From Paramacrobiotus metropolitanus (lineage: Eukaryota > Tardigrada > Eutardigrada > Parachela > Macrobiotidae): a stretch of 64,000 bases of DNA. This document shows, in pieces, positions 3,592 through 41,487 of this stretch (positions are counted from its first letter, which is position 1; each line of letters starts with the position of its first letter). A program made the position numbers and the translations under genes. The stretch covers positions 1-64,000 of the forward strand of contig NW_026570348.1 of NCBI RefSeq assembly GCF_019649055.1. Reading direction: 5' to 3'. The notes under the pieces are model-generated. The model had not been told where the DNA came from. It saw nothing but the letters and a program-made list of their open reading frames with translations, and did not search any database.

Positions 3592-3605
3592 GCCCGAAGG
3601 GGGGC
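3592..3605 (+). repeat. GAAGGG-loop hairpin, leader copy
   Basis: GCCC-GAAGGG-GGGC. First of about 14 copies with this hexaloop; see the finding for the full list. Confidence 0.7.
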
Positions 3606-3654
3606 ACGAGTGGGCAAGCCACTTTGGCTGTCGGGTGTGGAGTTTCAGGTGCGT

Positions 3655-3669
3655 CTCTACTGAGTAGAG
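3655..3669 (+). repeat. Leader palindrome CTCTACTGAGTAGAG, copy 2
   Basis: Identical to 3485-3499 and extended by flanking GCG/CGC pairing. Self-complementary leader sequences are the kind used for RNA dimerisation in retroelements; that role here is inferred. Confidence 0.8.
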
Positions 3670-3935
3670 CGCACACATTATACGCGCTCTCCCAAAGGGT
3701 GATCGAGCGCCCCTGTCGTTGCCAACGTTAAGGCGCGACAGAAGACCCGCAGCCAGCAAGCTATTTGGTCGACGCACCGTTGCGTCCCGTTGAGGCGAAA
3801 CGGAAGGGGTTATCAGCTGGCCCAGGAGAAGTCAGCTTAATCGCTGGAGGATTGGAGGAATCGCGGAAGGACGCGCAGGATCGATTTCTGGATCACGGAG
3901 ACGATCAGGTCAGATTTTCGTTTATTAATTTAGCT

Positions 3936-4203
3936 ATTGGCTGATTGGTAAAATCCTCAATTCTTATTGGTCGGTGATGAGCTGAGCGAAAAAGTAGGCG
4001 GTACTTTTGCGCACGGCGCGCTAGCTAAAATTTTCGATTTTCGACGTGACGTCACTCTGCCTTATAATCTGAAAACAACGTTTCTGATTGGTCAGTTATT
4101 CGCACTGTGATTGGCGCAGTAGCGTAGTTAGGAAATTAGCCAATAGAAGCTGAGATTTCGATAGAGGCGGAGTTTTTGCGCACGGCACTTAAGATCGTGA
4201 CGT
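3936..4203 (+). promoter_or_regulatory. Duplicated CCAAT / GC / CRE module in the leader
   Basis: ATTGG or CCAAT pentamers occur at 3936, 3944, 3966, 4087, 4110 and 4140. A 22-bp unit AGGCGG(N2)TTTTTGCGCACGGC-like is present twice (3996-4017 and 4165-4186), each followed by a TGACGT core: a perfect CRE TGACGTCA at 4047-4054 and TGACGTAG at 4198. CCAAT is the NF-Y site and TGACGTCA the CREB/ATF site in animals. Location downstream of the LTR suggests an internal promoter or enhancer; this is inferred. Confidence 0.5.
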
Positions 4204-4983
4204 AGCCAGCTGAGAAAATTTTCTTAAACTGACTGACGAGAAGTTGACCTTTACCAAAAATTCTCGACGAGAATGATGACCTTTTATTAAAAGTTGAAAG
4301 CTGAATTAAATAACGTTTATTCTGAGGAAATCTAAGTTGATTCTCAATAAAATCGAAAAATATTCTCAGGTTAGACGTTCAGAACTTGAAGTTGATAGTG
4401 ACCTTTAAAACAGAAAAGTTCTGAAGGAAAAAGTGACCTATAACGCTAAAACTAACACACGTGTCAGAAATTATTAGCATCGTCCAAGTTATCCGATCAT
4501 CAACGGAAGCCAAAGATATGGACAAGACACAGACGGTAATGAACCGGTCTCATCGAGCAGTCAGAGAACGGTCTCAGGGTTAGAAAACCCTTACGAACGG
4601 AAACTAAAGCCGTACACACGGCCGTGGAACATGAAAGAGCAACTCGAGCTCAAAGACCTTTGGGAGGAAGGACACCAGAGGCTCAGAGGCCACATATCAA
4701 ACGGCCCTGAGGGAAACTCAGAACGAAAGCTCGAGTGACGGAAATGGAAAAGCTCCGAACGACATGTCGGAGATAACACGGTAGACCAAGCAAAGGTCAC
4801 CGAAGAGAACGGCTTCAGATGGACAGAACAAAGATGACAAGAAGGCCGAGACCGGAGGAATGGCACGGTCGGCCGAAAAGGTCAAGGAGGAAAACGCGGA
4901 TCAAGTTGAGAGGAAGTGACGAAGTCAGTCAAAGGTCACCGAAGGTAGTGGCGCCGTCAGCAGCAACGAGCTGATCGACGAGG

Positions 4984-5035
4984 AAAGGTCAAACAGGATG
5001 ACCTTTCGGAAAACTCACTGTTCTTACAAGAACAG
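4984..5035 (+). repeat. Inverted AAAGGTCA pair and adjacent hairpin
   Basis: AAAGGTCA (4984-4991) and TGACCTTT (4999-5006) form a perfect 8-bp stem with a 7-nt loop. Right after it, CTGTTCTT/AAGAACAG (5018-5035) forms another perfect 8-bp hairpin. Confidence 0.8.
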
Positions 5036-5127
5036 CTGGAAGAGAACGGTACCAGCCCCACGTCAAGTGACAAGTTTACACTGACGATGAAGACGAAACG
5101 ACAGTACAGACGTCTTTCCATACGGCA

Positions 5128-6415: not shown

Positions 6416-6830
6416 AGTCCACACGTCGAAGGTAGCTTTCATTTCCAAGCTCCCTTAAAGACGGGGACTGGCCGAGCGACGGCCATGATAAAGATAAGGT
6501 CAAAGCTGAAAAGGTCACCGACGATACTGAGTTGGCGAAGGGGCACTCAGGACCGACCGGTGGGGTCAATCCTCGGCAACAAGAAACAGGACCGAGGAAA
6601 CAATCGTCTACAAATCTGACCATCAACCAGATAATCATGAAGATCCACGAGTTCGCCAAAAGCAGGAAAGGGTAGCTCGTGAAGAGAGAGGCGAGAAAGA
6701 GAATACCGCGCGGAATACCACGCTGAGGCACAGCGACTCCGTCGCGAAGAACAATTCAGAGGTTACATGAGAGCCATGGCCGGAAATCCGCGTTGATCGA
6801 CTACAACGGCAACCGAGAAGCTTTACTTGG

Positions 6831-7412: not shown

Positions 7413-7599
7413 TCAAGAAGTGACCTTTGGCAACGGTCGAAATGAAGGTCAAGTATCGTACGCGACGATCGCGGCGATCCAAACAGCCGTCAAAAGTAGC
7501 CAAGCCTGCGATCGCGGCGATCCAAGCATCAGCTCAGCAAGCAGCAAGGCCGAAACAGAATCCACAAGAAACGTGCAGAGAAATGCCCTGAATGGAGGT

Positions 7600-8520: not shown

Positions 8521-10480
8521 GCGCCGGTGAGCCTACTGATCGTCGGAACCGAAAACCACCGGATATAGAGGAGCAGGTGCTCCGCTGCAGGACAGAACCG
8601 CAGCGAGAAGGGATGCTGCGAAAGTAACGCAAAGACCGGAAAAGAAATCCGAGGATTCGAGAAAGTAACTCGAAATCGAGCGAAGGGGCTCATAAAGGTC
8701 AAGAGAAGGGTGTTAAAAGATTGCCGCAAGGACGGAAGAATTTGACCGAAAGGTCACCGCAGAAAGTAACTGCGGGGAGTCAAGAAAGTAACTGACTCAG
8801 CCGGGGCCGACCGAAGGTCACCGCAGAAAGTAACTGCGGGGAACAGGGTTGACGGAAGGGCCTCAACTCTGCATCCGGACAGCAGAAAGTAACTGCAAAT
8901 CAAGAAAGTCACGAAAGTAACGTGACGCTGGGACAGCAGACCCAAAGGTCACCGCAAAGTAACTGCGAGCAAAGGTCACGAAAGTAACGTGACGCTGCAA
9001 GGACAGCAGACCAAAGGTCACCGCGGAGCAACCGCGAGGAAGAGTGAAGCTACTCTGCGAAAGACGCAAGCGGAAATCTCAAGCGAAGAGGATGATGAAC
9101 ACATCACGCGAGATTCCGAAAGTTCGTCGAAAATACGTTTGAAGTTGACGGAATGACCGTAACCGTACAACGAACGCACGAAGGCGGTCCAGATAGACCG
9201 AAATTCCTTGAGCAGATGGCAAAAGTATTTCAAGCAAGAGCTGCTGAGGAAGATCACGGAAGGGCCGTGACTGCGCAAGGAGCGCAAGAGACCGAAAGGT
9301 CACCTCAAGCGAGAAAGAAGAAGTGAAAGGTCACGAGAGATTGCCAGTGCAGCAGACTCAAGAGTCACTGAAAGAGAAAGGTCACGGTGAAGTCGCCGAT
9401 GAACCGAAAGGTCAAGAAAGTAACTTGACTCTGCGATGGCGCAGCAAACAGTGAAACAGAGCGAAGGGGCACAGCAAGTCTCAGATGACTCTCTCGATGA
9501 GGCAAACACTCTACAACAGAAGATGAGTGGCAAAAGTCGCTTACAGGCCGAATGGACGGCACGGTATGTGGAAACCAGTTCCTCCGCCACAAAGGTCACC
9601 GCAAGATGTGAGAATCTCAGAGAAGCTTACTGGGAAGAAAGAGAAACAAGATTGGCGGATGAGAAAGCATCTCGAGGAAACGGTTAAAGCTTCACAACCG
9701 AAAGTACAAGAGTACTGGAGAAGAGAAGTCAATGCGACGAAAATAACCGTCAGTTTCGAGAGCGGATTGAGAGGGTGAATTACCGCCTCAGTATGGTGAG
9801 AAAGTGCCTTTAAAGGTCACTAAATGGTGGATTTTTCATGTCAAGACCAGAAAGGTCACCGGACTTAGCGCAAACTCCGCAGAAGGAGAAGTCATGACAT
9901 GACAGAAGCAATCCGGAATGACAACGAAAGGTCACCGCCAAGAACTGACGGATTGTCATCTCAAATCGATCAACTCACTGAATAACGAAATTGCGAAGAA
10001 AATTACGGATTGGATGAAAACGACCATAAGATGGTTGTGTACGAAAGGTCACCAGAGAAAAAAGTAGAAGATGACGAGATGACCTTTGCGGATGAAATTA
10101 CACAAGAGATAATGGCAAAGTTGCAAGAAAAAACCGTCCAAAGATGTGCGCAATGAAAGGTCACAATACGAAGTTATTGCGCAAGTGATAAAAGGTCACG
10201 AGAACGCACAAGAGAAGGGTTTAATGTGCGAAGTGGCAAAGGTCACGGGTAAAGACGCTGCGAAGGAGCAGGCGAATATCTTACCGAAATCAAAAGGATC
10301 GAAAAGTTCTCAGATGTGCGACCCGACGTACCGAAACGGATAGATCGTTGGAGCTCAAAGGTCTGATAGAGAGCAAGCATGCTGCACCAATCCCAGTCAA
10401 GTGTCGAATAAGAGTCTTGAAACTCGAAGATGGAAACTTACCGAAACGGATCAAGCTTATACACATGAAGTCAAAATTGG
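8521..10480 (+). other. Hairpin-dense spacer between gag and protease
   Basis: No long frame I trust; short frames give Lys/Arg/Ser-rich strings. The first 950 bp hold the densest hairpin array in the window (8599-9446), and AAAGGTCA occurs about every 80-100 bp to 10490 (for example near 8752, 8943, 8971, 9012, 9294, 9377, 9408, 9590, 9852, 10043, 10156, 10191). Frames 9436-9687 and 10146-10343 look compositionally protein-like but match nothing I recognise. Confidence 0.6.
8599..9444 (+). repeat. Array of AAAGTAA-loop hairpins with differing stems
   Basis: The heptamer AAAGTAA is the loop of successive stems: TGCG/CGCA (8617-8631), TTCGAG/CTCGAA (8656-8674), CCGCAG/CTGCGG (8757-8775), GAGTCA..TGACTC with one bulge (8777-8798), CCGCAG/CTGCGG (8821-8839), GCAG/CTGC (8882-8896), GTCACG/CGTGAC (8908-8926), CGCA/TGCG with loop AAGTAAC (8953-8967), GTCACG/CGTGAC (8975-8993) and GTCAAG/CTTGAC (9411-9429). 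Interspersed are other small stems: CGCAGC/GCTGCG (8599-8620), TGACC-GAAA-GGTCA (8743-8756), GCTG/CAGC (8927-8937, 8994-9007), CGCGG/CCGCG (9022-9036), AGAGT/ACTCT (9041-9056), TGCGC/GCGCA (9272-9286), GACTC/GAGTC (9355-9366), CTGCG/CGCAG (9431-9444). Stem sequence changes while complementarity and loop are kept. Confidence 0.9.
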
Positions 10481-10800: not shown

Positions 10801-10940
10801 GACGAGCCAAAATCATCCGCAAAAGTTAATGCAGGAAAGGTCACCGAACTTCAACCAAGAAATAATTCGGGGCAAACGGCTATCAGTACCAGAGGCACAG
10901 GATCGAAGGAAAATAAACAAAATGAGAATGGTGAAAATCT

Positions 10941-10967
10941 AATCCCAGTACCAGAGGCACAGGGATT
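10941..10967 (+). repeat. AGTACCAGAGGCACA-loop hairpin
   Basis: AATCCC/GGGATT, a perfect 6-bp stem, encloses AGTACCAGAGGCACA. The same loop core recurs near 10884-10901 with ATC/GAT and near 11115-11135 with CCCAGT/ACTGGG. Confidence 0.75.
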
Positions 10968-11333
10968 AGAAAATACTGAAAGAAGCAAAAGGTCACCGAA
11001 GTCTAAAGGAAATCAAAGGTCACCAACGATGAAACAAATCAAGATAATGCAAGCAGAAGCACTGATTGCAAAGAAACAGTCGCTAGTGCCAGGAATGGAG
11101 TGGTCAAGGCTACTCCCAGTACCAGAGGCACTGGGCACGAGAATGGTTGGGCCCAGGACAGAGCCAGGACTGATGAACAGCGACGAAAGAGCACTATTCT
11201 CGGAAATACGAGATCAAGCCATAAAAGCAACTGGATGCAAGGAAAACGGAGCATGGTGCTCAACACACTTTCGAACCACGTGATAAAGCAGAGGGCGGAT
11301 GAAGGTCGAGACACGCGCCTGCGCAAAGAGGTA

Positions 11334-11373
11334 GCAGAGAGTAGTCGTCGTCTTACTTCGAACCACGCTCTGC
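11334..11373 (+). repeat. GCAGAG(CG)...(CG)CTCTGC hairpin, copy 1 of 7
   Basis: Ends GCAGAG/CTCTGC flank a conserved core containing GTAGT and TTCGAACCACG. Other copies: 15346-15386, 17017-17051, 17065-17105, 17275-17331, 17338-17378, 22916-22956. Terminal complementarity is GCAGAGCG/CGCTCTGC in the best copies. Confidence 0.85.
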
Positions 11374-11961
11374 AGATGAAGAAATCAAGTCATCGAAATA
11401 TCATCAGATAACAGCGTAATCGAAATCGAAAAGATGACGAATGGACAGATACCGATTCCGGAGAAACGGATAAGCGAGTTATCGTCCGTCCTGAACCGAG
11501 ACAACGGATGCCGGAAGGGAACAATCGCGTCATTTCCGCAAACCAAGAGAATGGACTGCGGAAGAGAGCAACCTCTTGCCATCACGATTGGCACGACAGC
11601 GATGACCTTTCGATAGCGCGACCTCAAGAAAGATGTGCAAAATGCATGCAGAAATGACACAAGATGACCTTTCGGAATGGCCGAAATGCAATGCAGCAGT
11701 GCGCGTCATAAAGACAAGAAGAAATAGAGGTCAAAGTCGATTATGAGAACACTTCCCATGCCGGAACTGTCAAANAAGCAACTTACCTTTGGCAATGTTA
11801 TCGAGAATGGTTATCGGTAGTTAAGAACTACATCATCTCCAGGAAAGTGGCTCCATCATTGGCAGCAAGAAGCGGATAACTTCATTCCCGAAAAGGCGGA
11901 TAAAAGCGACCCGTGGTATACAAACCCGATTACAAAGCTCGACAGAGAAAGGCGACGAGCA

Positions 11962-12552
11962 ATGGAAGAGAACGAAATATGGGAGCAAACGAGAGTTGAC
12001 TTATTTTGGGAATTCAGAGTCAATTATCTATGGAAAGGTCAAGGACGAGCAATCATTTTCCCAATCGGACTCGGCACAGTAGTGTACGAATTATTTGACC
12101 TTTACCAGGCCTGCCTCAAAAAGGGAAATTTAAGAGAATGGAACAAACAATGGGGCAAAATCCTCGAAGAAGTACCGATATATACAGGAGAAATCCCTGA
12201 ATTAAAGGTCACGCGAAAAAGACGCGAACTCGGATTATTTGGCTATCTGAGAAAAAAGGTGACCTTTGCACCAGATCCAGATGGAGTGGAGTATCCCGAA
12301 AGAGGCGGAGATACTTGGTGCATGTATGAGACGGTACCGAACAATGACTGGACTACAGAAGAACTGATGGCAAATTGCGTCTTTATCGGCGATAAGAGAC
12401 CGAAAGGTCACAGCACAAGCGCTGAAAAAGAAAGCGGCACAAGCGCCGAAGAAGAAAAGAACAAAGATAACGGCACAAGCGCCGAAGAAACCAAAGAAAA
12501 AAGAACAAGAGGTCAGCACAAGTGCTGCTCAAGAAAACGGCACAGGCGCTGA
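11962..12552 (+). CDS. Unknown ORF between protease and RT
   Basis: 196 codons, open, with balanced composition in the first two thirds (LFWEFRVNYLW, IIFPIGLGTVVYELFDLY) that looks like a folded domain rather than random sequence. The C-terminal third is a run of GTSAEE-type repeats followed by a basic end. I do not recognise the family. The repeats are built on ACAAGC-loop hairpins in the DNA. It sits where no gene is expected in Ty3/gypsy elements. It may be part of an extended protease-RT polyprotein or an accessory protein. A frame change after 12520 suggests it continued downstream (frame 12522-12728). Confidence 0.45.
   Translation: MEENEIWEQTRVDLFWEFRVNYLWKGQGRAIIFPIGLGTVVYELFDLYQACLKKGNLREWNKQWGKILEEVPIYTGEIPELKVTRKRRELGLFGYLRKKVTFAPDPDGVEYPERGGDTWCMYETVPNNDWTTEELMANCVFIGDKRPKGHSTSAEKESGTSAEEEKNKDNGTSAEETKEKRTRGQHKCCSRKRHRR
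12411..12551 (+). repeat. Five ACAAGC-loop mini-hairpins
   Basis: CAGC/GCTG (12411-12424), CGGC/GCCG (12435-12448), CGGC/GCCG (12471-12484), CAGC/GCTG with loop ACAAGT (12514-12527) and CGGC/GCTG with loop ACAGGC and one G-U (12538-12551). A sixth, GGC/GCC around ACAAGC, lies in the leader near 3554-3565. Each is about 14 nt and encodes G/S-T-S-A-E in the first three. Confidence 0.85.
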
Positions 12553-12777
12553 AGAAGAGGAACCAACGCACGGCGTATGAGTTGGCTCAGATGATCAAGG
12601 AACTGAACCAGGCGCTTCGGGATAAGGAAAACGGAATCCCGGTAACAGAGGCAAAAAAGGCTCAAATGTCGCCGCAAGAGAAGAAAGCAGCGTCGTTAGT
12701 GGCTTCACTATTAAAGGTCACTCGGTAACGGTGAGGAAGGGCCACCAACCGAGAAGAACGAAAGGTCACTAAACGCG

Positions 12778-13831
12778 ATGCTGGAAGAGGAGCCAGAAAG
12801 GTCAGTTCCGAAAGTTGACGAAGAGTCACCTGAAACTGGCGAGGAAGGACCGCCAGTTGGAAAAGCAAAAAGGTCACAGAATACCGCTCAAGCAGATGAT
12901 AGCTCGGAAGACGATGAAAGGGATAGGTCACGAGCAAGGATTCGTGCAACACGAACAAATCCAAGGATAGCTGCACGAAACGGACGGAAGTCCAAGGAAA
13001 CGGACAAATCTCTGCCCGAAAAACGAAAAGCTAAAAAACTTAGCGCTTCCAAGGATGAAAGCGATGACCTTACAACAGAAAGTGAAGATGAAGGCGTCGA
13101 CGAGCGACCAATTGGGAAAAAGGAGTGAAGGTCAAGCGCTTGAGGTTAATAATAGCAGCGAATCCGACTCGGAATTCTCGAGCACAAGTGACAACTCGAC
13201 CACTTCTGAAGATTCTGGAGTGAGTGACCTTTCGGATCAAGAAGATCTGCTTGACCTCGACGAAGACGATGAAAAGAACGAACAACAAGAGAAAGAGATC
13301 ATTGTTCGAAGAATTAAAGTGCAGAAAGCAAGAATCCCAGAAGGAGCGATCAAGGTTTACAGCGATCAACGAGTTAAGCTGAGACCAAACCTTGGCACTC
13401 GCGTGAAGGTCAAGATGGGCGTTCATGTGCCACGGAATCAGAAGCTGATGTATACAGCAACTCCTCAAAAGGATAATGAAGTCCAACCGAGAACGGGAGT
13501 CACGGACCATAACGGCACTCGATTCGAAATCATTATCGAAAACCGAAGCAAAAGCCGAAAGACCGTAAGGAAGGGCCAATTTCTCGGTTACGTAGAACAT
13601 TACGAACACCTCGAGAATGTAAAGGTCAACTCGGCTACTGTCGTGAAAAACATCCTTGAAGATCCCGAAGTGGACGCAAAGACGAAAGAAGAACTGAACG
13701 ACATAATTGAAAGATTAAAGTTAGGACCAGACCTAACTGAGGAACAAAAGAATGACGTGCGAAACGCATTTTGGGAGTTTTGGAAAGTTCTCCCACGTCA
13801 AAGAAACCGTATGGCGACGTCAAAGGGGTAA
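12778..13831 (+). pseudogene. Acidic region plus pre-RT linker
   Basis: Frames 12778-13128 (116 aa) and 13055-13831 (258 aa) overlap by one shift. The first part and residues 1-80 of the second are runs of Ser/Glu/Asp and Lys (SSESDSEFSSTSD, LDEDDEKNEQQE), likely disordered. From about 13370 the protein becomes globular (RVKLRPNLGTRVKVKM, then FEIIIENRSKSRKTVRKGQF), resembling the beta-rich segment that precedes RT in Ty3/gypsy polyproteins. Residues near the end (NAFWEFW) run into the RT by a further shift at about 13780. Confidence 0.55.
12834..12858 (+). repeat. Hairpin with 8-bp stem, AGGAAGGAC loop
   Basis: Stem AACTGGCG/CGCCAGTT is perfect. Just upstream, 12721-12753 forms a two-tier stem (CTCGGT/ACCGAG outside, GGTG/CACC inside) around AGGAAGGG. 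Both loops are variants of the GAAGGG loop, and both lie at the edge of or inside an open frame. Confidence 0.8.
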
Positions 13832-15130
13832 CGCACACTATTGACACAGCCGATGCCAAACCGGTTAAATGCAATCCAGCAAGAACAAGTTGGAAAGGTC
13901 GTGAATTCATCACAAAGCACATCGAAGAGATGCTACAGCAAGATGTTATTGAACCATCCGATGCGGAATGGAGTTTTCCGGTCGTACTCGCCGCAAAGAA
14001 GAATGGCGACGGAACTATGGGAACAAGATTCTGCGTCAATTACATTTTGCTGAACAAGCTGACGAAAAAAGAACAACTATCCACTGCCGAACCCAGACGA
14101 ACTGCTTGACGCATGCGCGGGAAACAAGTACTACGGCAAGATGGACTTACAAAGTGGCTTCTGGCAGATCCCAATGGATCCAGCCTCGAAAGATAAGACA
14201 ACTTTCGTCACGCAGGACGGAATGTTCCGTTTCAAAAGAATGCCTTTTGGAGTCTGCAATGGACCTGCGACCTTTCAACTTTGTATGGATAAAGTCTTGT
14301 CGAACGCAAAGAGAATGGGATGCGTTTTCGGCTATATCGACGATGTGATCTTCGCAGGGAAGACCTGGGAGATCTTCATGCAGAACTTAAGGAACGTCCT
14401 CCAAAGTTTAGTCGACGCAGGCTTCACAATTAAGCCGACGAAATGCGAATTTGGCATGCGCGAAATGGGATTCCTGGGGCATATCCTCAGCGAGAATGGT
14501 ATTAAAATGGATCCCGAAAAGGTCATGGCAGTTAATGGCCAAAAGAAACCGACAACTGAACGGCAGTTAAGGTCATTCCTCGGATTAGCGAACTATTACC
14601 GAAAGTTCATCCTTGGATACGCGCAAAAGACGGCGCATCTCTACGAATTGCTAAGACATGACAAGAACATCAAAAGAGATTGGTCAGCAATCCATGACCA
14701 AGAATTCAATGACCTTAAAGAAGCGCTATGCAAGGATCCAGTATTAAAGAAGTTCGATCCGACAAAGCCGACAGTGATCGAGTGCGACGCATCAAAGGAA
14801 GGGCTAGGTGCGATCTTGTCCCAAGATGGACATCCCATTGCATACGCGAGCCGCGTTTTGCATGGAGCGGAAAAGAATTACGGAGTAACAGAATGGGAAT
14901 GTCTGGCGGTAGTCTTCGCCGTCAGAAAGTTCAAGTCGTACATCGACTACTCCGAATTCACAGTGAGAACGGATCACAAAGCTTTGACGAACCTTTAAGG
15001 TCGGAGTCGAACAAGTCATGCATGAATCCCCGATTGACAAGATGGGCATTGGCACTGCAAGGTCACCGATTCAAGATCGAATACAAGCCGGGCAAATACT
15101 GCGACAACGCAGATGCCCTTTCAAGAGCGC
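13771..15130 (+). pseudogene. Reverse transcriptase and RNase H (Ty3/gypsy), frameshifted
   Basis: RT begins in frame 13771-14109 (VKCNPARTSW..., EMLQQDVIEPSDAEWSFPV, then ILLNKLT), shifts near 14095, and continues in 14141-14998 with LQSGFWQIPMDP, FGVCNGPATFQ and the catalytic YIDD at 14333-14344. RNase H follows in the same frame: VIECDASKEGLGAIL (first catalytic Asp), AEKNYGVTEWECLAVV (Glu) and TDHKALTNL (second Asp). A stop and shift near 14998 move the remainder, RWALALQGHRFKIEY...ADALSR, into the frame reading through 15018-15130. The order and motifs are diagnostic of Ty3/gypsy. All catalytic residues are present, so decay is by frameshift rather than by active-site loss. Confidence 0.93.
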
Positions 15131-16969
15131 CAATTGAAGGTCCCACTTGCAACGAAGAAGAGTACGACGAAATCCCAAACTTCGAAGATTACAAGAACGA
15201 ACTCAACAGAGAAGAACCTCCGATTGAAGTTTGGCAACTTTTCGTGCAACTAGCTGAAGAAAGGGAAGAAAGGCTGAAGGCCGACATGAGAAGGGTTGTG
15301 TCGGAAGAGAAAGGAAGCGGAGATATGCGCTCGAGCATAAACGAAGCAGAGCGTAGTCGTCGCCTTACTTTCGAACCCCGCTCTGCTACCAAGATAAAGG
15401 TCAACAGGGTGAGAAAAGAAGCTTCCGAACGAAAAGATGGAAAGGTCACGAAAGACGGTCAGAAAATGGTAGACCAGAATGACCTTCGCGAAGCAGAAAT
15501 TCTCTCCGAATACATTCCGGAAGAGTGTCCCATCAGATTGCTGAGATTCCCAAAGAAAATCGAGAAAGGTCACAAGCCTCTTCCGAGATGCAAGGTCATC
15601 AAAGACTGGAATGAACTCAGCACTCCAGTGGTCCGCATCGTCAACCTTCAGGGAGATGAAGAAGAAGAAGATGATACGAACTTGCAGTTGCGGAACAAGC
15701 AGCTAAAAGATCCGCACTTAGCAATGATCATCGATGAATTGGAGCACCTGCAAGATGCAGATAAAAGGTCAAAGTTTGAGACGCATTATCAGTTATGGAA
15801 TGGCATACTGTATCGCGTCAAAGACCAAAAGGAAGACTTGAAAGGACATATGTTGTACCGCTGCAAATGAGAAGGGCTATCATCCATGCACTGCATGATG
15901 AAAAGCAGCAGGTCACCTCGGCTTCGAAAAGACGTTGTCCGCGATCCGGCTCAGATATTACTGGGACCGTATGAGCACGGATGTGAAGAATTACATCCTC
16001 GCATGCCAAGGATGCCAGTTCATAAAGACGCCAAGAAAATGTCCACCCGGAAAGCTCCAAGAGATCAAAGTTGGTCATCCATTCTTCAGAGTCTATGCGG
16101 ACTTGAAAGGACCTTTACTCCCAACAAAGAAAAGGGGATATAAATACATCGCGGTCTTTATCGACCAGCTGACGAAGTACGTCATAGCGGAGCCAATGAA
16201 AACAGCCACCGCAAAAGAATTCGCAAAGGTTTTCGTGAAACACGTAATCTTGGTGCACGGAGCGCCCCATATCCTCCACACGGATCGCGGAAGACATTTC
16301 ACCGCAGAAGTACTGAAAAGGTCACCAACGTGTTTAAAATCAAACACACGTTTGGAACAGCGTACCATCCTGAGGGCCAAGGACAGGTTGAAAGACAGAT
16401 GCAGACCATCAGCGATGGACTGTCGCAATACCTGAAAGCGGGAAACGAAAGGAAGTTTAACAAATATCTTCCATACGTCATATCGGCAATGAACCGTGCA
16501 GTACACGCAACGACAGGGTACTCAGCATACTATATGCTCCACGGAAGAGAGATGACCATGCCAGAAGACGTCGTAACAAAGACGAACGTTCCCGACGATT
16601 ATGGTGCACCAGATGAATGGGTGGAAACCATGAAAAGAAATTTGACCTTTTCAGAAGAAGTGGCGAAGTGCAACATCAAAGATGCATATGAAAAGCATGC
16701 AGAAATCTACAACAAGAAGAAGTCAGAACCTGAATTTAAGGTCGGAGATAGAGTCTTAATCAGACTGCCTAAAGATACAAAGCAAGGAAAGAAGGAAAAT
16801 CAAACTGACTTCAAAAAACAAATACGACAAAGTGTGGAAGATTCTCAGCTTTCCGAGACCGAACGAAGTCGAGGTCATCGAGCAAGATGCGGTAAAGAGC
16901 CGGACTTACGGGTCGTTTCGGTAGATCGTCTAAAATCGTGGCACCCGCCGTTACCGGTTCAGAAAAATC

Positions 16970-16987
16970 AAGCTGGAAGGGCAGCTT
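16970..16987 (+). repeat. GAAGGG-loop hairpin inside the integrase tail
   Basis: Stem AAGCTG/CAGCTT, perfect 6 bp, loop GAAGGG, inside an open coding frame. Confidence 0.8.
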
Positions 16988-17064
16988 CGGAATCACCTGA
17001 GAAAGGTCATGAAATTGCAGAGCATGGCTCTCATACTTTCGAACCACGCTCGCGTAACGACATA

Positions 17065-17378
17065 GCAGAGCGTAGTTGTCAGCATACTTCCGAACCACGC
17101 TCTGTACCAGCTATGGCAGAAGAGCCGAAAGAGGCAGAAGAGCCGAAAGAGGCAGAAGAGCCAAAAGAGGCGGAAGAGCCAGGAACGAAAAAGAGAGGAA
17201 GAAAGAAGAAAGAGAATAAAGATTTCGAAACACCAGTGACAATGAAGCTGAATCAAGAGGCAGGAGACCTCGAAGCAGAGCATGGATCTCAAGTGGCGCC
17301 TAAGTCAAAGCTTACTCTCGAACCACGCTCTCAAGTAGCAGAGCATGATTCCAAAGATGCTTTCGAACCACGCTCTGC
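17065..17378 (+). repeat. Cluster of GCAGAGCG hairpin repeats in integrase tail
   Basis: Three copies (17065-17105, 17275-17331, 17338-17378) plus a partial one at 17017-17051. They add AE(R/H)..FEPRS peptides to the open frame. Between the first and the next pair an 18-bp unit GAAGAGCCGAAAGAGGCA repeats about three times (about 17117-17170). Confidence 0.8.
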
Positions 17379-17744
17379 CACCAACGGCAAGAATGACCTT
17401 TCAAGAGCGGAACAGATAAAAGCCGTCAAAGAACAAGCCGACCGACTTGGCCAACGGATCGCGAACGAAATTGAGAAGCGAAAGGTCAAGAAAATGAAGA
17501 AAACTCCGAAGCCGACTCCAGAACAGATTCTGAGAGGAGAAGTCCAAGACGAAGATGAAGCCGACAAAGCATTACTTGATCGGATAACTAAAGGACGAAA
17601 ACAAATAAACCCGAAAATCAGGCTTATAGGAGTTTATGATATTAAGACTGGAAGTTGGGACGGCGTAAAGGTCATCAGAAATAAACCTGCTAATCGGAGT
17701 CATTTTCGTTGTCGTAGTAGGTTTGTTTAGCGATAAGCTGAGGA

Positions 17745-18551
17745 ATGGAGAGTCAAGGTGGCAGAAGTTATTGGAATCCGGGAACGCCGTCATCGACGAG
17801 CGGAACGATTCAGGACCCGGACTTATATGACGATTCAATGAATACGGAAGGAACGTACGAAGGGGGATACGACCCGTCTACTACGTATCAACAATCCGAC
17901 GTGGGAATGAGCTCGAACACATGGGGGACTTACGGCACGCAGGTCGGGCCCCAAGGGCAAATGATGCCGAATCAGATGATGCCAAACCAGATGATGCCAA
18001 ATCAAATGATGCCAAATCAGATGATGCCGAACCAAGGAATGATGGGACAGAATTTCCCATTCCAGCAATTCCCACAGATGTACGGCCAAAATATGCCCAT
18101 GATGAACCAGGGTCAACCGATGCAAGGTCAGTTCGGATATGGAGGAATGGCCCCATTTCCGAACCAGATGCAGGGATTCCCAAATCAGATGCAGGGATTC
18201 AACCCTCAGCAAAGTCAAGGGCAATTTCGAACACCGAAACCGTCAAGAGGTCAACGTTACCCGGGAGACAGACAAAACACACCGCGAAGGGGCGGTCAGT
18301 CGTCTACTCCGAGAGCGTCGACGAGTGGCCAGGGAACGAGAATGAGATCCCATCACTTACACCAGTCCAATCCACTCGCCAAGATCGACCGGAAGTATTC
18401 CGTGGCAGTGTTAAATGCACCCAGATTCAACGACCCAATCACGGAAACGGATCCAGTACAACATTGTGATGGATCCAGTCACCTCACAGAGAAGAAAAGA
18501 AGGCTGTGGCGGAGTTTAATGAAAATGCCGCGAGTTCGTCCAGCTGCATAA
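17745..18551 (+). CDS. Met/Gln/Asn/Gly-rich low-complexity protein with MMPNQ repeats
   Basis: 268 codons, open from ATG at 17745 immediately after the integrase stop. Residues 1-70 are Gly/Ser/Thr/Tyr-rich. Five tandem MMPNQ pentapeptides follow (15-bp DNA repeat, about 17960-18035), then PFQQFPQMYGQ and PNQMQGF repeats, then a basic RGG-like stretch near residue 165-205. Composition is prion-like and RNA-binding-like, as in condensate-forming proteins, but I recognise no domain. The last 60 codons change character and may belong to another frame. A second nucleocapsid-like protein is one possibility. Its neighbour is integrase upstream, and the next readable segment begins at about 18620. 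Confidence 0.6.
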   Translation: MESQGGRSYWNPGTPSSTSGTIQDPDLYDDSMNTEGTYEGGYDPSTTYQQSDVGMSSNTWGTYGTQVGPQGQMMPNQMMPNQMMPNQMMPNQMMPNQGMMGQNFPFQQFPQMYGQNMPMMNQGQPMQGQFGYGGMAPFPNQMQGFPNQMQGFNPQQSQGQFRTPKPSRGQRYPGDRQNTPRRGGQSSTPRASTSGQGTRMRSHHLHQSNPLAKIDRKYSVAVLNAPRFNDPITETDPVQHCDGSSHLTEKKRRLWRSLMKMPRVRPAA

Positions 18552-19655
18552 CGATATCAACGATAATCAAGATCAGTACAGGACGGTCGAAGAACTCACA
18601 AGATAACCAGGGGAACCCACCTCCACATGAAACTGGATAAACATCGAGGCGGAAGAGTTGCGAAAAGAAAGAGGTGTTGAAATCAGAACACTGAAGAACA
18701 GTAATCCAGTGTTGCGCAACAGGGAATGGCCGAGCGCAGTAAAGACGATACTGATCTTCATGAACCTCATTCCCGGAACCAAAAGAAGAAGAACAGAGAG
18801 AGGAGTCAAAACTCCGGCATAGGAAAGCCCCACTAAGGAAGAGCATACGGCCAAGCGAACGAGGAATGTTTCAGCCTGAGGACCTGTTGGTAACTCGAGA
18901 GAGAACTGTTGAGAAAGGGATAAACTCTGGACAGAGAAATTATGGAATTGAGGTCTCGTACGACATCGGCAGTACAATCAGGATCATCGCGTGCCAGCCC
19001 AGCGAGAGAAACTCAATCCAAATTGAAATACGAAAAAGGGTCAACTCCCGGTGGAGTGAAGGCACACCGGCTAGAAGAGAAACCGAAAAGTCATCCCATG
19101 CGAGCACGCGAAGGCGCAGCTCGGAAACAAAGTAGATCGCACACCAGAGTTTTCCGGCTTAAAGATAAAACGGAAGGAGTAGTCAGCGCATTCCTAGTCC
19201 ATAGAGACACTGATCAACCAATTCCATCAATGGGGAAGGAGCTGACGAGCCGTATCAGCTGATGTGCAAAGAAGCCAGCGATACAGCAGAGCAAGCGATT
19301 GGTGAACTCATTAAGTCAGAACGGAATAACTCGACCATGATAGGAAGAATCCTGAGAGACCTGTTGAGAGAAACAGCATTCAAAGAGAAGGAATATCATG
19401 GTCACAATTGATGAAGGGTAGAATGGAGAAACAACTCTATAACCCGCAAGGCGAAGATTGATATGCTCGCATGGAGCATATCCGGCGTCAGGCGCGAAGG
19501 CACGAGGCGGAAGAAGAAGGAGAATGGGAAGATGTGGAGAAGATGAAGAAACCTGCCATACAGAGAGATGGTGTGTAGATGTCTAAAGGTCAACTATCAC
19601 ATGGCAGACGGAGATGAGGATACGTCCACGGTTTTATCATTGACCGACGACCTAT
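18552..19655 (+). other. Accessory region, broken frames, function unknown
   Basis: A frame without ATG at about 18627-18820 (NWINIEAEELRKERGVEIR, then LIFMNLIPGTKRR) looks coding; 18866-19135 and 18942-19262 overlap it in other frames and are Arg/Ser/Glu-rich. No domain recognised. AAAGGTCA is sparse here (near 19584). Confidence 0.4.
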
Positions 19656-20372
19656 ATGCCGATCCCGACAGCAGGAACGAATGCGACTCCTCAAGAAATT
19701 GATTGGCAAACACAGAAGTCGTATAGTGACCTTAATAGATCTCTCAATCTCCTGCCAGAGGACCAGCGGAATGACACTGCTGCGAATATACAAGCAGTGA
19801 TGAGTATCCTCAGGCACAGGGCCGAAGAAGACCGAGCCTATTTGGTAGTCTTTTTGAAAGATGACGAAGGAAAGTGGAAATCACTCTTCGACTCCAAGGG
19901 CAAAGGGCTCTATTTTCCGGAAAACTTCCAATTTAACCCGACGGCGGAAGAGCACATTAAATATTACTCTGGTGACCTGCCGGCCCAAGCCGAAGCCATG
20001 GAGACTCAAGAAGAAATCGATAGGGATCACCATGTCGACGCATCGACTATAAATTCATGAATCAAGAAGGAAGAAGGGATCCTCAGAATCGAAGTGGTCG
20101 ATCCTCAGACGGGACAAATGGTGTCAAACGCAGGCTTCACTCCAGAAGAGGAGGAAGAGGAAACATCAAAACTCATGCAAGAGGTGGAGCAAGTACTGCA
20201 GGTCCTGCCACAAGAGGAAGAGCGCGAAGAATTCGAAGCCATAACCGAAGTATTGGTTAACGTCATGATGCCAAGAGCACGCCAGGACGGAGCATACATG
20301 CGCTTGACCCATATTGACCCTTCCATGGAGAAGTGTACAAGCAGCTTTACACTTCGAGAGGCGAAACACTGA
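19656..20372 (+). pseudogene. Unknown accessory protein, one frameshift
   Basis: Frame 19656-20060 (134 aa; YSDLNRSLNLLPEDQRNDTA, AYLVVFLKDDEGKWKSLF) continues by a shift near 20050-20070 into 20094-20372 (92 aa; acidic helix EEEEEETSKLMQEVEQVL, then EREEFEAITEVLVNVM). Together they give about 225 residues of well-behaved, mostly helical sequence. I do not recognise it. It lies 2 kb after integrase in a position where env or accessory genes sit in other elements, but I see no signal peptide or membrane segment. Confidence 0.45.
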
Positions 20373-21652
20373 CCAAGCTGTCGGGGGCGAAAAAGGTCAA
20401 GAAACCGGCTGAGAAGGGTCAGCCTGAGCAAATTAAAGCAGAAGAAAAGGTCACGAAGAGAAGAAAGAAACGAAAGGTCAAGAGATAAGGAAAAATCATG
20501 AGAACGGGAGATCAAGAAGGCGAACATCCGACTCAAGAAGCGCGGAAAGGGTCAAAGCGATAATTGCGAAGAAGTTCAACCGCACTCATGCAACGACCCT
20601 AAATGTGAAAGATGTCAGAAAGACGAAGAGAAAAGAAAGAAGATCAGAAGAAGAAAAAGGAAACCAGTTAAGGTCACGGCACGAGAAGGTAGCGCGGTGA
20701 AACTTTTGTCAGACAGCCGAAGTTACTGGGAGTTATGGAAAGAAAAGAGAAAACCCGAATCGGACTCTGAGCCAGAACAATTGGCTATCAACGCAAAGCA
20801 GGGTCGTCACAAGCCGAGACCGACGAAGAGAAAGACAAGGTCAATCACGCAAGGTGATGGAGGAAGCGATGACGATGCAGCCGATCTATGCGTCGACGAT
20901 GAAAGAACGCAAGGACAAGGCTGATAAAGAGAAGAAGAAAAGGGATACTTCTGTCGAATCGGCGAAATCGGAAGTCAGCGTCGCATCGTCGAAGTCGTCA
21001 ATAAAAGAGAAAGATAAAGAAAGAAAGGTCAGAGAGACACAAGAAAATCCCGACCAGCTTGGCAGATTATATGGATGCACAGAAGAAACCAAAGGTCACT
21101 GCCAGAACACTCTTATCGGACGAGTCGATGCAGCTGACATCGTGAACTGGAGACCTGTCGAAGGGGACAGCGAATTGGATTACACGGACGACGAATACGA
21201 TGACCGATTCTTCGTCTGCGAGTCGAACGAACAAACAACAATCGAAGAAATTGACGAAATCCTCATCGGAGCAACAGCAGATTGGGGAAAGGCGACGAGA
21301 TCAGTTACATCGAAATTCAGAAAGGACGTCAAGGCGTATTGCGAAGAGACGAATAAAAGACTGCCGCAGAGCAAGTACAACGCCGTCCTGGAATATGCAA
21401 GAGCACAGGAAAGTCCTCCAGAAACATCCGAAATATGGCTCCAAAGCGAAGCTGTACATCACCGGGAACAATAATGAGCGGAAGTTGGCTACAGCAAACG
21501 CAGATATCCGAGAACGGATTGAACGCGCCATTATCGGGATGTGCAGTCCGATGGGCACGACGAAACACCGCGCAGTTCATTAATGGAGTCTGGAGCAAAG
21601 AGAAGGAAATGCTTCAGTCATTGAAAGGTCACTCGGAAGAGCGCTAACACAG
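20373..21652 (+). pseudogene. Unknown Lys/Glu-rich accessory protein
   Basis: Frame 20854-21474 (206 aa) starts with a charged stretch (KERKDKADKEKKKRDTSVES, then SVASSKSSIKEKDKE), followed by a possibly folded part with VDAADIVNWRPVEGDSELDY and EEIDEILIGATADWGKATR. A related continuation lies in 21435-21647. Upstream, 20373-20853, is Lys/Arg-rich in broken frames. No family recognised. It carries GAAGGG hairpins at 20407-20424 and 21155-21170. Confidence 0.4.
20407..20424 (+). repeat. GAAGGG-loop hairpin
   Basis: Stem GGCTGA/TCAGCC, perfect 6 bp, loop GAAGGG. Other accessory-region copies have different stems: ACCGC/GCGGT (18281-18296), CTGTC/GACAG (21155-21170), TAGC/GCTA (22972-22985), CTTAGC/GCTAAG with loop GAATGG (22990-23007), CGTTGA/TTAACG with one G-U (23133-23150), CGCAG/CTGCG (25173-25188). 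Confidence 0.85.
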
Positions 21653-22840
21653 ATGGTGGCGGAAAAGAAGCTGCACACCACAAACCCGCACAAAGGTGTT
21701 ACCATCAGATACAGCTCATTGAACGCCGTCCCAGAAGAATTGAGACAATATAAGAAGGAAGAGATGAGCGAAGATATCACCATTATATTGGATCCGAGAC
21801 TCGATGCGGAATGCCCCATCTTGAGTCACATCAAATTGGACAGTGAAAAAGCGGCAAATTCATCGAAGAAAGAGAAAGAAGAGCAAATAGAGGAATCAAT
21901 GGTCGTTGAAGAAAATGTCGTTGAAGAAAAAGAGGCAGAAACGGTAGAGAAGGTGAACCGAACTGCATGCGCCGAAATCGGCTGAAGAGGCTATTGCGTT
22001 GGTGGGACCACCGAAACCGATGTCGGTACAGGGAAGCACTTGCCGCCGTACGAAGTCAAAGGGCAAGTGGATCCAGTTCAGCAGTGGATACCCAAAAGAT
22101 CCACCGATCGACAACAGCACTGACATCGTTAAAGGCAGCACACGAAAAAGCGACGCAAGGAAAAAACGACGTTAAAGGTCATGCTGCGGAAGAAACAGCT
22201 AAAGGTCATCAGACTTCAGCGCAAAGTGGAATTGAGGAGAAAGGTCATCCGAGCTCAAGTCAAGAGAAGATGGCCCAGCCTACTGGATCGCAACCACCGG
22301 TAGAAGCTACACAGCAAGTGCAGTCCCCATCGCAGAAAGAGGAGACGGACGACGAGCTAAACGAGAGTAACGTCCCGTGGATGACAATTTACGCTGCGAT
22401 CGGTGCAGCCCCGTCGAGAGAAATGGATAAGACGGATATTTCAAAAGCAGTCGGCGACGCCGGAGTCAGCAGGACACAAGTCAACAAGCTCATAAAAAGA
22501 GCGTATAAAGAAGGAAAGATCGGTGTACGATACACGAACACGAATCAACCGAACTACTACATTCTCCGGCGGAAGAACAACGAAAGCAGAGACCGAAACC
22601 AGGTCCCCAGGCTTGGAAGGACGCTTTGACTAAAGATGCCATGCAGAACATAGGCGGGACTAACGGGTTCACCGCAGAAGACCTCTCAATTACATGGCAG
22701 TTCAGTATGATTCCGGCCAAGAAAATATGAACGGGATCGATTCAAGATCCAGAACGCGTTGGACAGTTTGGTCAAAGACGGAACCATCAGAACATGGAAG
22801 AAGGATGGAGTCGACCAATACGACTGGATCGCGAAAGCGT
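21653..22840 (+). pseudogene. Accessory protein with two winged-helix-like units
   Basis: Frame 21653-21985 (110 aa, acidic end) passes by a shift into 21967-22629 (220 aa). After a low-complexity Gln/Ser/Glu stretch with three KGH peptides encoded by AAAGGTCA, residues about 135-205 form a helix-turn-helix pattern: MTIYAAIGAAP, TDISKAVGDAGVSRTQVNKL, IKRAYKEGKIGVRY, then NQPNYYIL as a wing. By two further one-base shifts a second unit follows (about 22600-22842): GFTAEDLSITWQF, then FKIQNALDSLVKDGTIRTWK and DQYDWIAK. The layout, helix-helix-IxNxL helix-GKI/GTI-wing with P-x-Y or Y-x-W at the end, is that of winged helices. A Z-alpha-like relation is conceivable from the N in the recognition helix and the closing aromatic, but a Tyr is missing. 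Nucleic-acid binding is inferred. Confidence 0.45.
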
Positions 22841-22915
22841 AAAACGGAAGAACATGTGTGGGAGGAAGGTCCACCACACAAAAAGAAGAATCAGAATCAG
22901 AAAAGAGAAGAATGA

Positions 22916-22956
22916 GCAGACCGTAGTTCTCAAATTACTTTCGAACCACACTCTGC
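22916..22956 (+). repeat. GCAGA...TCTGC hairpin, copy 7
   Basis: Contains CGTAGTTCT and TTTCGAACCACACTCTGC; the stem end is slightly eroded. It is followed directly by two GAAGGG-type hairpins at 22972-22985 and 22990-23007. Confidence 0.75.
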
Positions 22957-23274
22957 AAAAAAGAGTTGAATTAGCGAAGGGGCTATTTACTTAGCGAATG
23001 GGCTAAGATGAGAAAGGTCACCATACAGTTGAGAATGGTTCAGTCAAAGAAGGATGACAAAGGTCATCATGAAACAACGAGAAAGTCTCAGCTCAGCACT
23101 GCATAGCCTAGTTACTATAGGCAAAAAATAGGCGTTGAGAAGGGTTAACGTAAAGGTCATAGCATTATAATGTTTGAGATTGCAGGCTGAGACATCAGAA
23201 TGGCTGAACGGAGCCAACCCAACCAGAACGTGGCGAAAAGGGACAAAGACCAGCGGTAAAAGAAGGTCACGGGG

Positions 23275-24165
23275 GATCCTTTGACGAATTACAACGAGGA
23301 CTGCCCGGATTGTAAACGAAATAACATCCTGTCGAACGAACGTTTCCCATGCTGGACTTGCGTCGTGGCAGTACCGAACCAAGCAGTAGTGGTACCAGAA
23401 GAGGCGAGAAGGGTAACCTCGATGTGTTCCGGCATTTGGTTACGGGAGACACATGGATGAAACTGTCACCAGAAGACCGGATGATACTGGAAGATAAATA
23501 CAGAATGTGGGTCGGACGCAGACCGGGATGGGATATCACCCTTGAACCGCCGAGAACACCGGAAGCGGATGCGTTCAGGAAGAAGTTTGAAGAAGACACG
23601 ATGAGAATGGTACAGGAAAAGCGCGAGGCAGAGCGGCTAGAAGAAAGAGAAAGCTGCGGCAGAGAAGGGTCTAGCCGAAGCAGCTAAAGGTCACGCACCT
23701 GCCCCATTTGCGATATTGAAGAAACAAGATGAAGGAGAAGCAGCTGTAATCAGACAGTCGCTGATACAGCAGATTGACATCATCTTGCAAGATCCACTCG
23801 CGGTATCGAAAGAGGAATACAAAATCTTCCTGGACGAAAAGGTCAACCTAACAAAAGGAAACAGACCATCCCAGGTTATCAAAATCGCGATCGAAGAACG
23901 AATCGACAGGATGCGAAACTTTCGAAAAAGAGAGAAAGATGTGGTTGAGGCCCTTCGGAACTTCAAGAAAGAGGAGTTCAAACGCCCAAAATCGCCTCAA
24001 AGAGATGATCGCAACCGCGGCTATGAAAGGTCATCAGACCGCTCCCGAGAAAGGTCATGGGAAAGACATCATAACGACCGATACAGTGGATATGCGAGAG
24101 ATACGCGTACGTCGGAGCAAAGAAGGGATGAAGAACGTATCCGACGTGAAAAGAACAAAGAGTAG
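23275..24165 (+). pseudogene. Zinc-ribbon protein and helical Arg-rich protein, broken
   Basis: At 23302-23361 a frame encodes C-P-D-C, twelve residues, C-W-T-C, a zinc-ribbon pattern. A frame change just after it leads into 23349-23687 (112 aa; WMKLSPEDRMILEDKYRMW, then EADAFRKKFEEDTMRMVQEK). Next, 23716-24165 (149 aa) is helical (VIRQSLIQQIDIILQDPLAV, IAIEERIDRMRNFRKRE) with an Arg/Ser/Asp-rich tail (SSDRSRERSWERHH) like RNA-binding RS tails. Family unknown. The zinc ribbon plus basic tail suggests nucleic-acid binding. Confidence 0.45.
23652..23685 (+). repeat. Extended GAAGGG-loop hairpin
   Basis: AGCTG+CGGC+AGA pairs with TCT+GCCG+CAGCT, with a bulged A and a 3-nt bulge on the 3' side, around GAAGGG. 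Twelve base pairs in 34 nt. Confidence 0.8.
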
Positions 24166-24489
24166 CGACGCTGAAAAGAAGCGCAGAAAAGCGCCGCCAA
24201 GAAGAATACAGGAAAACGCAGAAACGCGGAGGAATACAGAAAATCAACGAAACCTGTAATAGGCAGCAGGAGAAGGAACGGGCTGCTAAGGAAACGCAGA
24301 ATCGCGATTCACAGAATCGAGAAGGAAGAAGTGAGGCTCGAGTAAATCAACATCCTCAAAGGGGCCATATGATCAAGAGTGGGTCCAGGATAACTTGAAT
24401 ATGGATGATTATGAGTTTGGAGATATATCTTACAACAGTAAAGGTCATCCAGCTCAGAAAGCCACCGCACGCCTAAGAGCCCGCGCAGA

Positions 24490-25844
24490 ATGCAATCAGT
24501 AGTTCATTCTGTTTGTTCAACGTTCAAGTCAGCCGAGAAACAACCGGCACAGCAGATGGATGAGGTCATGGAATGTAGTCCAGCATCCTCAAATGTCATT
24601 GAAGTCCATGGAGACGAGGACATGCGACCGTCGAGACGAAACATCATCTTCGATCTGGAGCGACAACTTACAAGCGCAGAGACGGCGAGTAATGCACCGC
24701 CAGAATCGGAATCAGAGAAGGGCGACCAGAAAGGTCAATCAAAGGTCACGGCTCCGAGGAGACAATCCCTACAAACCATTGAGCTGGTATATGAAATGAA
24801 CGACATCATGGAACAGACGAACGAGATTTGCCGTTCAGTGGGCATTGCTCCGGATAATAAAGAAGAATTCGATAAGGTGTACTGGCTTCTCATGAACTTG
24901 CGCCAGGTCATCAACGATTCGGGATATGCGAAGGAGTACGAGTATGGGCAATGGGAAGATCTGATCATAACGCAAGAGTCAGCGAATCTTCATTACTTCC
25001 CGACGAGAGAATGCGGCCTTGTCAGTTTGATCGACCTGAGTCTCTTGGAAACACCGTTGGACACACCGGATCCAACAGGAATGACACAGTTCCAGTATAA
25101 AGACATCAAGGAAAGACGTCTGCACGTGGCACAATTTGTGTTACGCCATGTAAATCCGGCGCTGAGACTCCTCGCAGGAAGGGCTGCGTTGGGATTAGTG
25201 GTGAAACCAGATTCGCCACCTGATCACCGTGCCACGATTCAAAAGATTTTGCAGCAAGGCTTGGCCATTACGAAACGCACCACCAGTTGAGAAAGAGCGC
25301 TCAAAGAGGCACGGAGATACCGCCGGCACTGACCGCGCAGGTCATAAAGTTGGGAACGCCAGTTGCGAACTTTAATTCTTCGGAAACGGCCAAGAAGCAG
25401 CTAAAAGACGTCCAAAAGGCGATGAAATTCGATGATAGCCTGCGACGTCAAGCACAAATGCATGCCCACCGATGTGCGGAACGGATCAGAGTCACGATGG
25501 GAACACGGTTCATCCAGCCATCCGACTTCGTCTACGAATTCATTCAAGAGATCAGCGTTAACAAAAGCAGCTATCGACCGGAACTTGCGCGACAGCCGCA
25601 GGACAATGAAATGAGTCGACGTGGACGAAGAAACCAGCAGCTGCACTTGGATTATGTCGAATTGTGCAAAAGGTCACGAGACAATCCATACGATGAAGGA
25701 TTGAAAGCGCGCATGGTCGACGCGAGAGATCACCTGATCCGTATCCAACGCAGACGTGACCGAAATCGTCACAGTGCTACTAGCAGCCGGAGCGAAGGAG
25801 ACGAGCTGCAAGAGAGGAAAGGAACCTCGAGATCGAACGTCTGA
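24490..25844 (+). pseudogene. Unknown accessory protein in two frames, about 450 aa
   Basis: Frame 24490-25290 (266 aa) reads from an ATG. It has a disordered N-terminal 90 residues, then a helical domain (IELVYEMNDIMEQTNEICRS, FDKVYWLLMNLRQVINDSGY, RRLHVAQFVLRHVNPALRLL). The stop at 25288 overlaps a continuing frame 25287-25844 (LKDVQKAMKFDDSLRRQAQM, RIRVTMGTRFIQPSDFVYEF) ending Arg/Ser-rich, so the two are best read as one protein with a single-base shift. It is the longest, best-preserved accessory gene and last before the 3' region. No homologue recognised. It carries the GAAGGG hairpin at 25173-25188. Confidence 0.5.
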
Positions 25845-27448: not shown

Positions 27449-27604
27449 TCTGTAGTAATGTTTATAGTTGCCGGACACGCTAGCAACAGGGACAATGCCC
27501 TTACAATTTGATTACGAAAATCAGTTTTGCCCAAGCCTAAATGCGCATAAGCTGCATAAAAAACTATTGTCCCATATCGATAACAAAGAAATCCGGATAC
27601 TTAC

Positions 27605-38114: not shown

Positions 38115-38246
38115 CTTTTTATTTCTCTGTTCTGCATTTTATTTGAATTGTTACATTCATCTGTACGGCTGCTGAATTTCTGGATTTAAGAGTGGATTGT
38201 GTTCAGTTGAATGCTTGCCAGATGAAAGAGTTCATTAGCTCACTGG

Positions 38247-41477: not shown

Positions 41478-41487
41478 TTTTTTTAAT

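Follow-up and report, generated by a model that had tools for sequence, protein, structure and literature searches.

Introduction

Single-stranded RNA viruses, among them MS2, enterovirus and parechovirus, are described as carrying dispersed packaging signals (PMC6281560; PMC4751978; PMC7793301; PMC5431903), and giant gypsy elements are already known in Burro and Ogre, the Burro elements of planarians being gypsy-like retrotransposons longer than 20 kb that are present in many copies and have added coding capacity (PMC6431247). Here we describe a ~24 kb Ty3/gypsy-type long terminal repeat (LTR) element of the tardigrade Paramacrobiotus metropolitanus, located at 3009-27447 of the first 64,000 nucleotides of contig NW_026570348.1 (the window), which carries dispersed hairpins sharing the loop GAAGGG or a close variant of it. 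The element resembles the viral genomes in having many stem-loops spread genome-wide, with a short loop motif on variable stems; it differs from them in being an LTR retroelement with lineage-specific loops and a coat-protein contact that is hypothetical. With Burro it shares its gypsy type, a length above 20 kb, extra coding capacity and many copies. However, Burro encodes a single 4,873-amino-acid ORF1 polyprotein to which BIR, BCL2 and further domains have been added, whereas the relatives of our element have about four long frames in which only protease (PR), reverse transcriptase (RT), RNase H (RH) and integrase (IN) score above cut-off, and no dispersed hairpin code is mentioned in the available text of the Burro report (PMC6431247).

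The same element is punctuated by a second signal, the eight-base word AAAGGTCA, which is the sequence of the NBRE, the NR4A nuclear-receptor site (PMC3281863). The word is letter-for-letter identical to that site and is conserved in either orientation; unlike the NBRE as described, there are some 90 exact copies of it, in both orientations, within 24 kb, and a receptor role for it is putative. DNA transposons of the Ac and Spm type have subterminal repeats in which many short words occur in both orientations within each element. In contrast to those, the present case is an LTR retroelement with words through its whole body, including coding sequence. No report of either code in an LTR retrotransposon was found in the open-access literature, most subscription journals lying outside the search.

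Results

The first-pass annotation of the window had listed GAAGGG-loop hairpins on unrelated stems. The sequence given is present at all 13 places, and the sharing of one loop by unrelated stems was borne out. GAAGGG occurs at 30 + strand sites (3596 to 25178), and CCCTTC four times in the whole window, two of these inside the element. When the fraction of sites flanked by at least four strict Watson-Crick pairs is compared, as the annotation had proposed, GAAGGG scores 8/30 against 124/23,759 for all hexamers and has the highest fraction among the 653 hexamers with 10 or more occurrences. A forced-loop test, in which each hexamer is taken as a loop, 17 bases on each side are folded and a minimum free energy of -4 kcal/mol or lower is counted, gives 14/30 for GAAGGG versus 734/23,624 hexamers (3.1%) and ranks it first of 3,824 hexamers, with GAATGG second (9/36). 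When the flanks of the GAAGGG sites themselves are shuffled, a mean of 1.3 of the 30 fold, with a maximum of five in 200 rounds. The signal extends to the wider loop family: other GAANGG sites fold as loops in 15/100 cases versus 3.4 with shuffled flanks, giving 29 folding sites for all GAANGG where 4.7 are expected. Among 58,768 loop/k-mer tests over loop lengths of 4-10 bases, GAAGGG takes the top rank (Bonferroni 4e-9) and the seven-base loop AAAGTAA the next; the identical scan over 20 kb of flank (27450-47450) yields nothing below Bonferroni 1.

The 14 hairpins of the forced-loop test contain 11 of the 13 listed earlier; the remaining two, at 9254 (excluded by its five-base loop) and 12721 (excluded by its bulge), are real. 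Beyond the earlier list there are GAAGGG hairpins at 10214, 14798 and 15290, and GAATGG or GAACGG hairpins that include 11141, 15798 and 23206. By codon phase, 35 GAANGG/GAAGGA hairpins of the window divide 8/4/9, with 14 not placed, and since all three phases are used no peptide motif explains them, so that such an origin is rejected. In the relative C44m, 10/14 placed hairpins share one phase, as do 48/97 placed hexamers of that kind.

The genome analysed (169.8 Mb in 533 contigs, from an animal) holds many relatives of the element. With the window RT as query, 136 places were scored among 1,514 candidates in this genome, and by RT identity to the window they comprise lineage A (mostly 92-100%), to which the window element belongs, lineage B (mostly 81-87%) and lineage C (about 71%). 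The hairpins follow these lineages. Over the pol stretch, 2-5 GAANGG/GAAGGA hairpins are present in the window copy and in each of 14 other lineage-A copies, whereas the homologous stretch of 15 lineage-B copies has 0-2 each, none with GAAGGG; GAANGG hairpins as a family-wide feature are rejected on account of this near-absence from B. Six relatives were read, in three pieces each. C44m as a whole shows a weaker enrichment (GAAGGN loops 9/51 and GAAGGG 2/7, versus a 3.4% background), and GAAGGN loops are not enriched in C162 (3/48), C58m (3/42) or C9b (2/33), where GAAGGG stands at 0/7, 0/8 and 1/7, respectively. Several B copies instead carry another loop, AATGGTA, on near-identical stems, mostly CGCAG, which is significant only in C162. 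Further significant loops in relatives are AGAGGC and TGGTAC (C162), CCTGTG (C44m, Bonferroni 0.02-0.04) and CCAGAG (C9b, 0.04). A, B and C44m have in common a nine-base loop, ACCAGAGGC, carried by a CCCAGT-type stem.

Among lineage-A copies, loop positions 1-6 of 14 hairpins have 7, 2, 3, 31, 8 and 14 substituted cells, each of 169 (counting the window's own rows, L001 and L014, and those of copies that have lost the hairpin, but not gap rows). The loop consensus is GAANG(G/A), with base 4 variable and bases 1-3 and 5 mostly held. In the stems, 117 changed cells over 10 hairpins comprise 20 that become another Watson-Crick pair, five of them by double change, 11 that become G.U, 26 that become A.C and 60 in other states including gaps. 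Compensatory double changes occur at three sites: 12732/12744, where T-A becomes C-G in two copies (L018 and L020), 15285/15300 (C-G to T-A in L019) and 22990/23007 (C-G to T-A in L072). A further one at 22972/22985 was not counted, the hairpin of the copy concerned being replaced. With the partner strand slid out of register as a control, 83% of cells pair versus 28-47% when slid (three hairpins, 17 sequences). Some hairpins are retained in copies up to 18% diverged. The proposal that structure is held against protein constraint is partly upheld: enrichment and loop conservation are its main support, but compensatory stem changes are few. Likewise, the check for conservation in other copies found hairpins over pol in 14 other lineage-A copies, but several hairpins decay in diverged copies.

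All of these hairpins lie inside the element and are given here on the + strand. GAAGGG is flanked directly by short stems in GCCC-GAAGGG-GGGC (3592..3605), GAGC-GAAGGG-GCTC (8678..8691), AAGCTG-GAAGGG-CAGCTT (16970..16987), ACCGC-GAAGGG-GCGGT (18281..18296), GGCTGA-GAAGGG-TCAGCC (20407..20424), CTGTC-GAAGGG-GACAG (21155..21170), CGTTGA-GAAGGG-TTAACG (23133..23150, with AAAGGTCA at 23152) and CGCAG-GAAGGG-CTGCG (25173..25188). The hairpin at 8678..8691 is identical in 7/7 other copies read, and AAAGGTCA begins 3 nt downstream of it. Interrupted stems are seen in the bulged GAGT(TG)GC-GAAGGG-GC-ACTC (6529..6548) and in GTTGA(C)G-GAAGGG-C(C)TCAAC (8848..8867), the latter having T-A in place of the inner C.C mismatch in copy L007, where one outer pair is C.A. 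CTCGGT..GGTG(A)G-GAAGGG-C-CACC..ACCGAG (12721..12753) has a bulged A near the loop, an architecture repeated in AACTGGCG(A)G-GAAGGA-C-CGCCAGTT (12834..12858). A 12-pair hairpin with bulges and the loop GAAGGG (23652..23685) is followed directly by AAAGGTCA at 23686. TCACGG-AAGGG-CCGTGA (9254..9270) has a five-base loop on a six-pair stem, one inner pair of which is A.C in 4/7 other copies. Among the hairpins beyond the earlier list are CGCACAAGA-GAAGGG-TTTAATGTGCG (10205..10230), with nine pairs and a bulge and one pair A.C in 4/7 other copies, and CCGACATGA-GAAGGG-TTGTGTCGG (15281..15304), with nine pairs. Two adjacent hairpins at 22972..23007 have the loops GAAGGG and GAATGG, and loop base 4 is variable in the 17 sequences aligned there.

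The word AAAGGTCA is present 70 times on the + strand and 21 times in reverse orientation, as TGACCTTT, between 4245 and 26885, where dinucleotide shuffles give about 1.2 and 0.15, respectively. Five of the six relatives carry 64-68 + and 24-37 reverse words, and C44m has none in the pieces read (L051-L053), although its pol protein is ~80% identical to that of copies with ~90 words and its identical terminal repeats mark it as recently inserted. Genome-wide, AAAGGTCA occurs 42,562 times versus 15,522 for the reversed word. Retention was compared in 11/42 ordered copy pairs, C103 being in none. Among the five B-B pairs, whose identity is 80-91%, 80-92% of the + words and 68-90% of the reverse words are retained, against 16-57% of the 8-mers 10 bases away; for example, C162 to C9b keeps 44/48 (+) and 26/29 (reverse) with a flank of 51/153, C1m to C58m keeps 41/47 and 21/26 with a flank of 24/142, and the closest pair, C1m to C162, keeps 59/67 and 24/27 with a flank of 106/187. 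Between A and B (about 75% identity, 5.7 kb aligned) 54-78% of + and 60-70% of reverse words are kept, with 9-17% of flank, and towards C44m none is kept (0/41 from C162 and 0/12 from the window). When four B-B pairs are pooled, exactly eight positions stand out in either orientation, with a per-base conservation of 0.92-0.99, and the bases beside the word are at about 0.77 (0.66-0.90). The + words occupy all three codon phases, and a peptide-motif origin is rejected on that ground. This conservation in both orientations argues for recognition of AAAGGTCA as double-stranded DNA.

Twelve word sites lie in the window at 12.6-16.6 kb. Four of them are common to 18-20 of up to 20 B rows (in which one element is counted twice) and are mutated in C44m. 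Of the remaining eight, two align but lack the word in B, and six are unalignable to B. Three lineage-C copies are without the word at one of the four sites common to A and B. In the RT tree, used to root gain or loss of the word, A, B and C44m form a fork with no clear order. In 7/14 cases, versus 2.9 expected, a GAAGGG loop has its centre no more than 30 nt from that of a word (p 0.016), an excess confined to 30-40 nt (p 0.36 at 20 nt and 0.06 at 60 nt). Strong hexaloop hairpins with other loops are farther from words than expected.

The 5′ terminal repeat (3009..3331, + strand) is 89.8% identical to the 3′ terminal repeat (27116..27447, + strand) in a 333-column alignment, and the longest listed frame of the window element has 466 codons. 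The window copy, with terminal repeats ~90% identical, is old. RT and RNase H of the Ty3/gypsy type are encoded at 14141..14998 on the + strand (Pfam RVT_1, RT_RNaseH and RT_RNaseH_2). Terminal direct repeats were detected in 4/6 relatives, and in two of these they are 100% identical over 308 and 350 bp, which points to recent insertion. The least broken relatives have about four long frames. ORF1 (open reading frame 1) encodes 1,231-1,277 amino acids in 3/6 relatives, with a capsid-like region aligned among relatives, one CCHC knuckle near the C-terminus and RGG tails. It is overlapped by ORF2, which carries PR-RT-RH-IN, the pol order in both relatives scanned, C1m and C44m; the two further long frames gave no recognised domain above cut-off. 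Seven A copies and C44m have a knuckle with CQNC, whereas that of five B copies has CQYC or CQHC (rows L002-L008, L039, L042, L045, L048, L051 and L054). Its covariation with loop type is a one-residue correlation, worth a test and no more.

Discussion

We regard it as quite possible, though still tentative, that the hairpins constitute a dispersed RNA recognition code and serve as packaging signals. According to this model, some 20-25 stem-loops would present the GAANG(G/A) loop along the RNA of the giant element, and it would be the loop and the fact of being paired that matter, whereas the sequence of the stem would not. The reader would be the element's own Gag, which through its capsid-like region, single CCHC knuckle and RGG tails may make many weak contacts along the 24 kb genome. 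In this way a lineage could package and condense its own RNA and not that of co-resident lineages. Because the Gag-like protein of the relatives has a zinc knuckle and RGG tails, we consider Gag-read packaging signals the best explanation, and we infer action as RNA, Gag as reader, and assembly or self-recognition as purpose.

Several observations weigh against the model. Pfam gave no convincing match for ORF1 and a search against PDB sequences gave none, and the assignment as Gag was made by eye and from the knuckle pattern. A.C changes in the stems exceed G.U changes, and tolerance of G.U in a sense RNA is therefore not evident; inference of the sense strand from wobble pairs is likewise not supported. 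Formal covariation, for three hairpins and 17 sequences, is reached or surpassed in 20 to 467 of 500 shuffles. The hairpin at 12834 is absent and that at 15290 weakened in L021-L023, the stem at 23133 is lost in many of 16 other copies, and the pol stretch of L022 has no GAAGGG hairpin. At the -4 threshold, sense and antisense fold almost equally often (14 and 13), and the enrichment in C44m was first noticed in an open list and tested afterwards.

The loops could be sites for a host RNA-binding protein concerned with nuclear export, stability or translation of the unspliced 24 kb RNA, in the manner of constitutive export elements, a reading that we hold to be rather unlikely. It fits the same structural data, the forced-loop enrichment and the conservation of the loop, and different lineages could employ different host factors. 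However, export normally needs one or a few sites whereas these are spread over 22 kb, and it is awkward that lineage B shares the host yet is nearly without the hairpins. Somewhat less likely still are hairpins formed at the DNA level, in single-stranded complementary DNA (cDNA) or as cruciforms, and read by reverse transcriptase, integrase or a DNA-binding protein. The predominance of A.C (26) over G.U (11) changes is what such a reading would accommodate, as it would the behaviour of AAAGGTCA as a double-stranded DNA word, near which (within 30 nt) half of the 14 loops lie. Against it, GAAGGG is sense-biased (30 sites versus 4 of CCCTTC in the window), although base composition contributes to this, and sense folds are the more stable at -6 (14/30 versus 9/30 antisense) and also at -8.

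It is improbable that a mutational process, for instance template switching at GAAGGG in the course of reverse transcription, left the short stems behind without any function. Stems that are unrelated and lineage-specific, and that decay in some diverged copies, would be expected of it, but not a loop conserved across copies with one variable base, nor hairpins that persist to 18% divergence and show compensatory changes. An origin by chance from composition or codon usage may be dismissed almost entirely. The + strand of the element is indeed rich in A and G, but neither the other hexamers nor the flank-shuffled controls reproduce 14/30, all codon phases are used, and the homologous B stretches are nearly without hairpins.

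For the packaging-signal model, co-resident lineages that lack or have replaced the loop would provide a natural comparison that makes the idea testable. A wider proposal, which we advance as possible and no less tentatively, is that two lineage-specific codes are superimposed in the coding sequence, RNA hairpins for Gag and the DNA word AAAGGTCA. The word, at about 90 per element, would mark the DNA so that a nuclear receptor of the host, or a protein of the element, could recognise it, with possible roles in transcription, nuclear entry or retention of the 24 kb cDNA. Of the three lineages compared, A and B have the word, whereas hairpins are found in A and, at a weaker level, in C44m (a single copy), so that the two are separable modules. 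AAAGGTCA is the second, stronger and unusually clean signal. It shows that selection acts on the nucleotides of about 90 sites in the face of protein coding, and raises the question of which protein reads the DNA of the element along its entire length.

Other features of the window

Two further loop types are significant in the window, AAAGTAA and a CAAGGTGG-type loop that resembles tandem repeats at 8.0-8.4 kb. Nine hairpins with the seven-base loop AAAGTAA, on several stems and partly in tandem units, cluster at 8615..9430 on the + strand, and hairpins of the CCCAGT-ACCAGAGGC-ACTGGG type lie at 10870-11138. A motif built around ACTTTCGAACCACGCTCTGC recurs up to eight times at 11245-22956; its copy at 15345 forms pairs with GCAGAGCG upstream of it, the two enclosing a variable insert. 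The TTCGAA of this motif is reminiscent of a tRNA T-loop. Rfam gave no match at gathering score and ARAGORN no tRNA.

Outside the element, cadherin domains are encoded at 55-61 kb of the window. A GTPase frame lies at 57.7-59.6 kb, the top-scoring named relatives of which are oribatid-mite proteins, with the tardigrade Hypsibius exemplaris also represented (51% identity). Two adjacent self-complementary stretches lie at 41406-41477 (72 bases) and 41488-41555 (68 bases). The flank at 38236-48054 consists of repeated units that are mostly 77-87% identical, some of which recur inverted at 27595-27908, just past the element.

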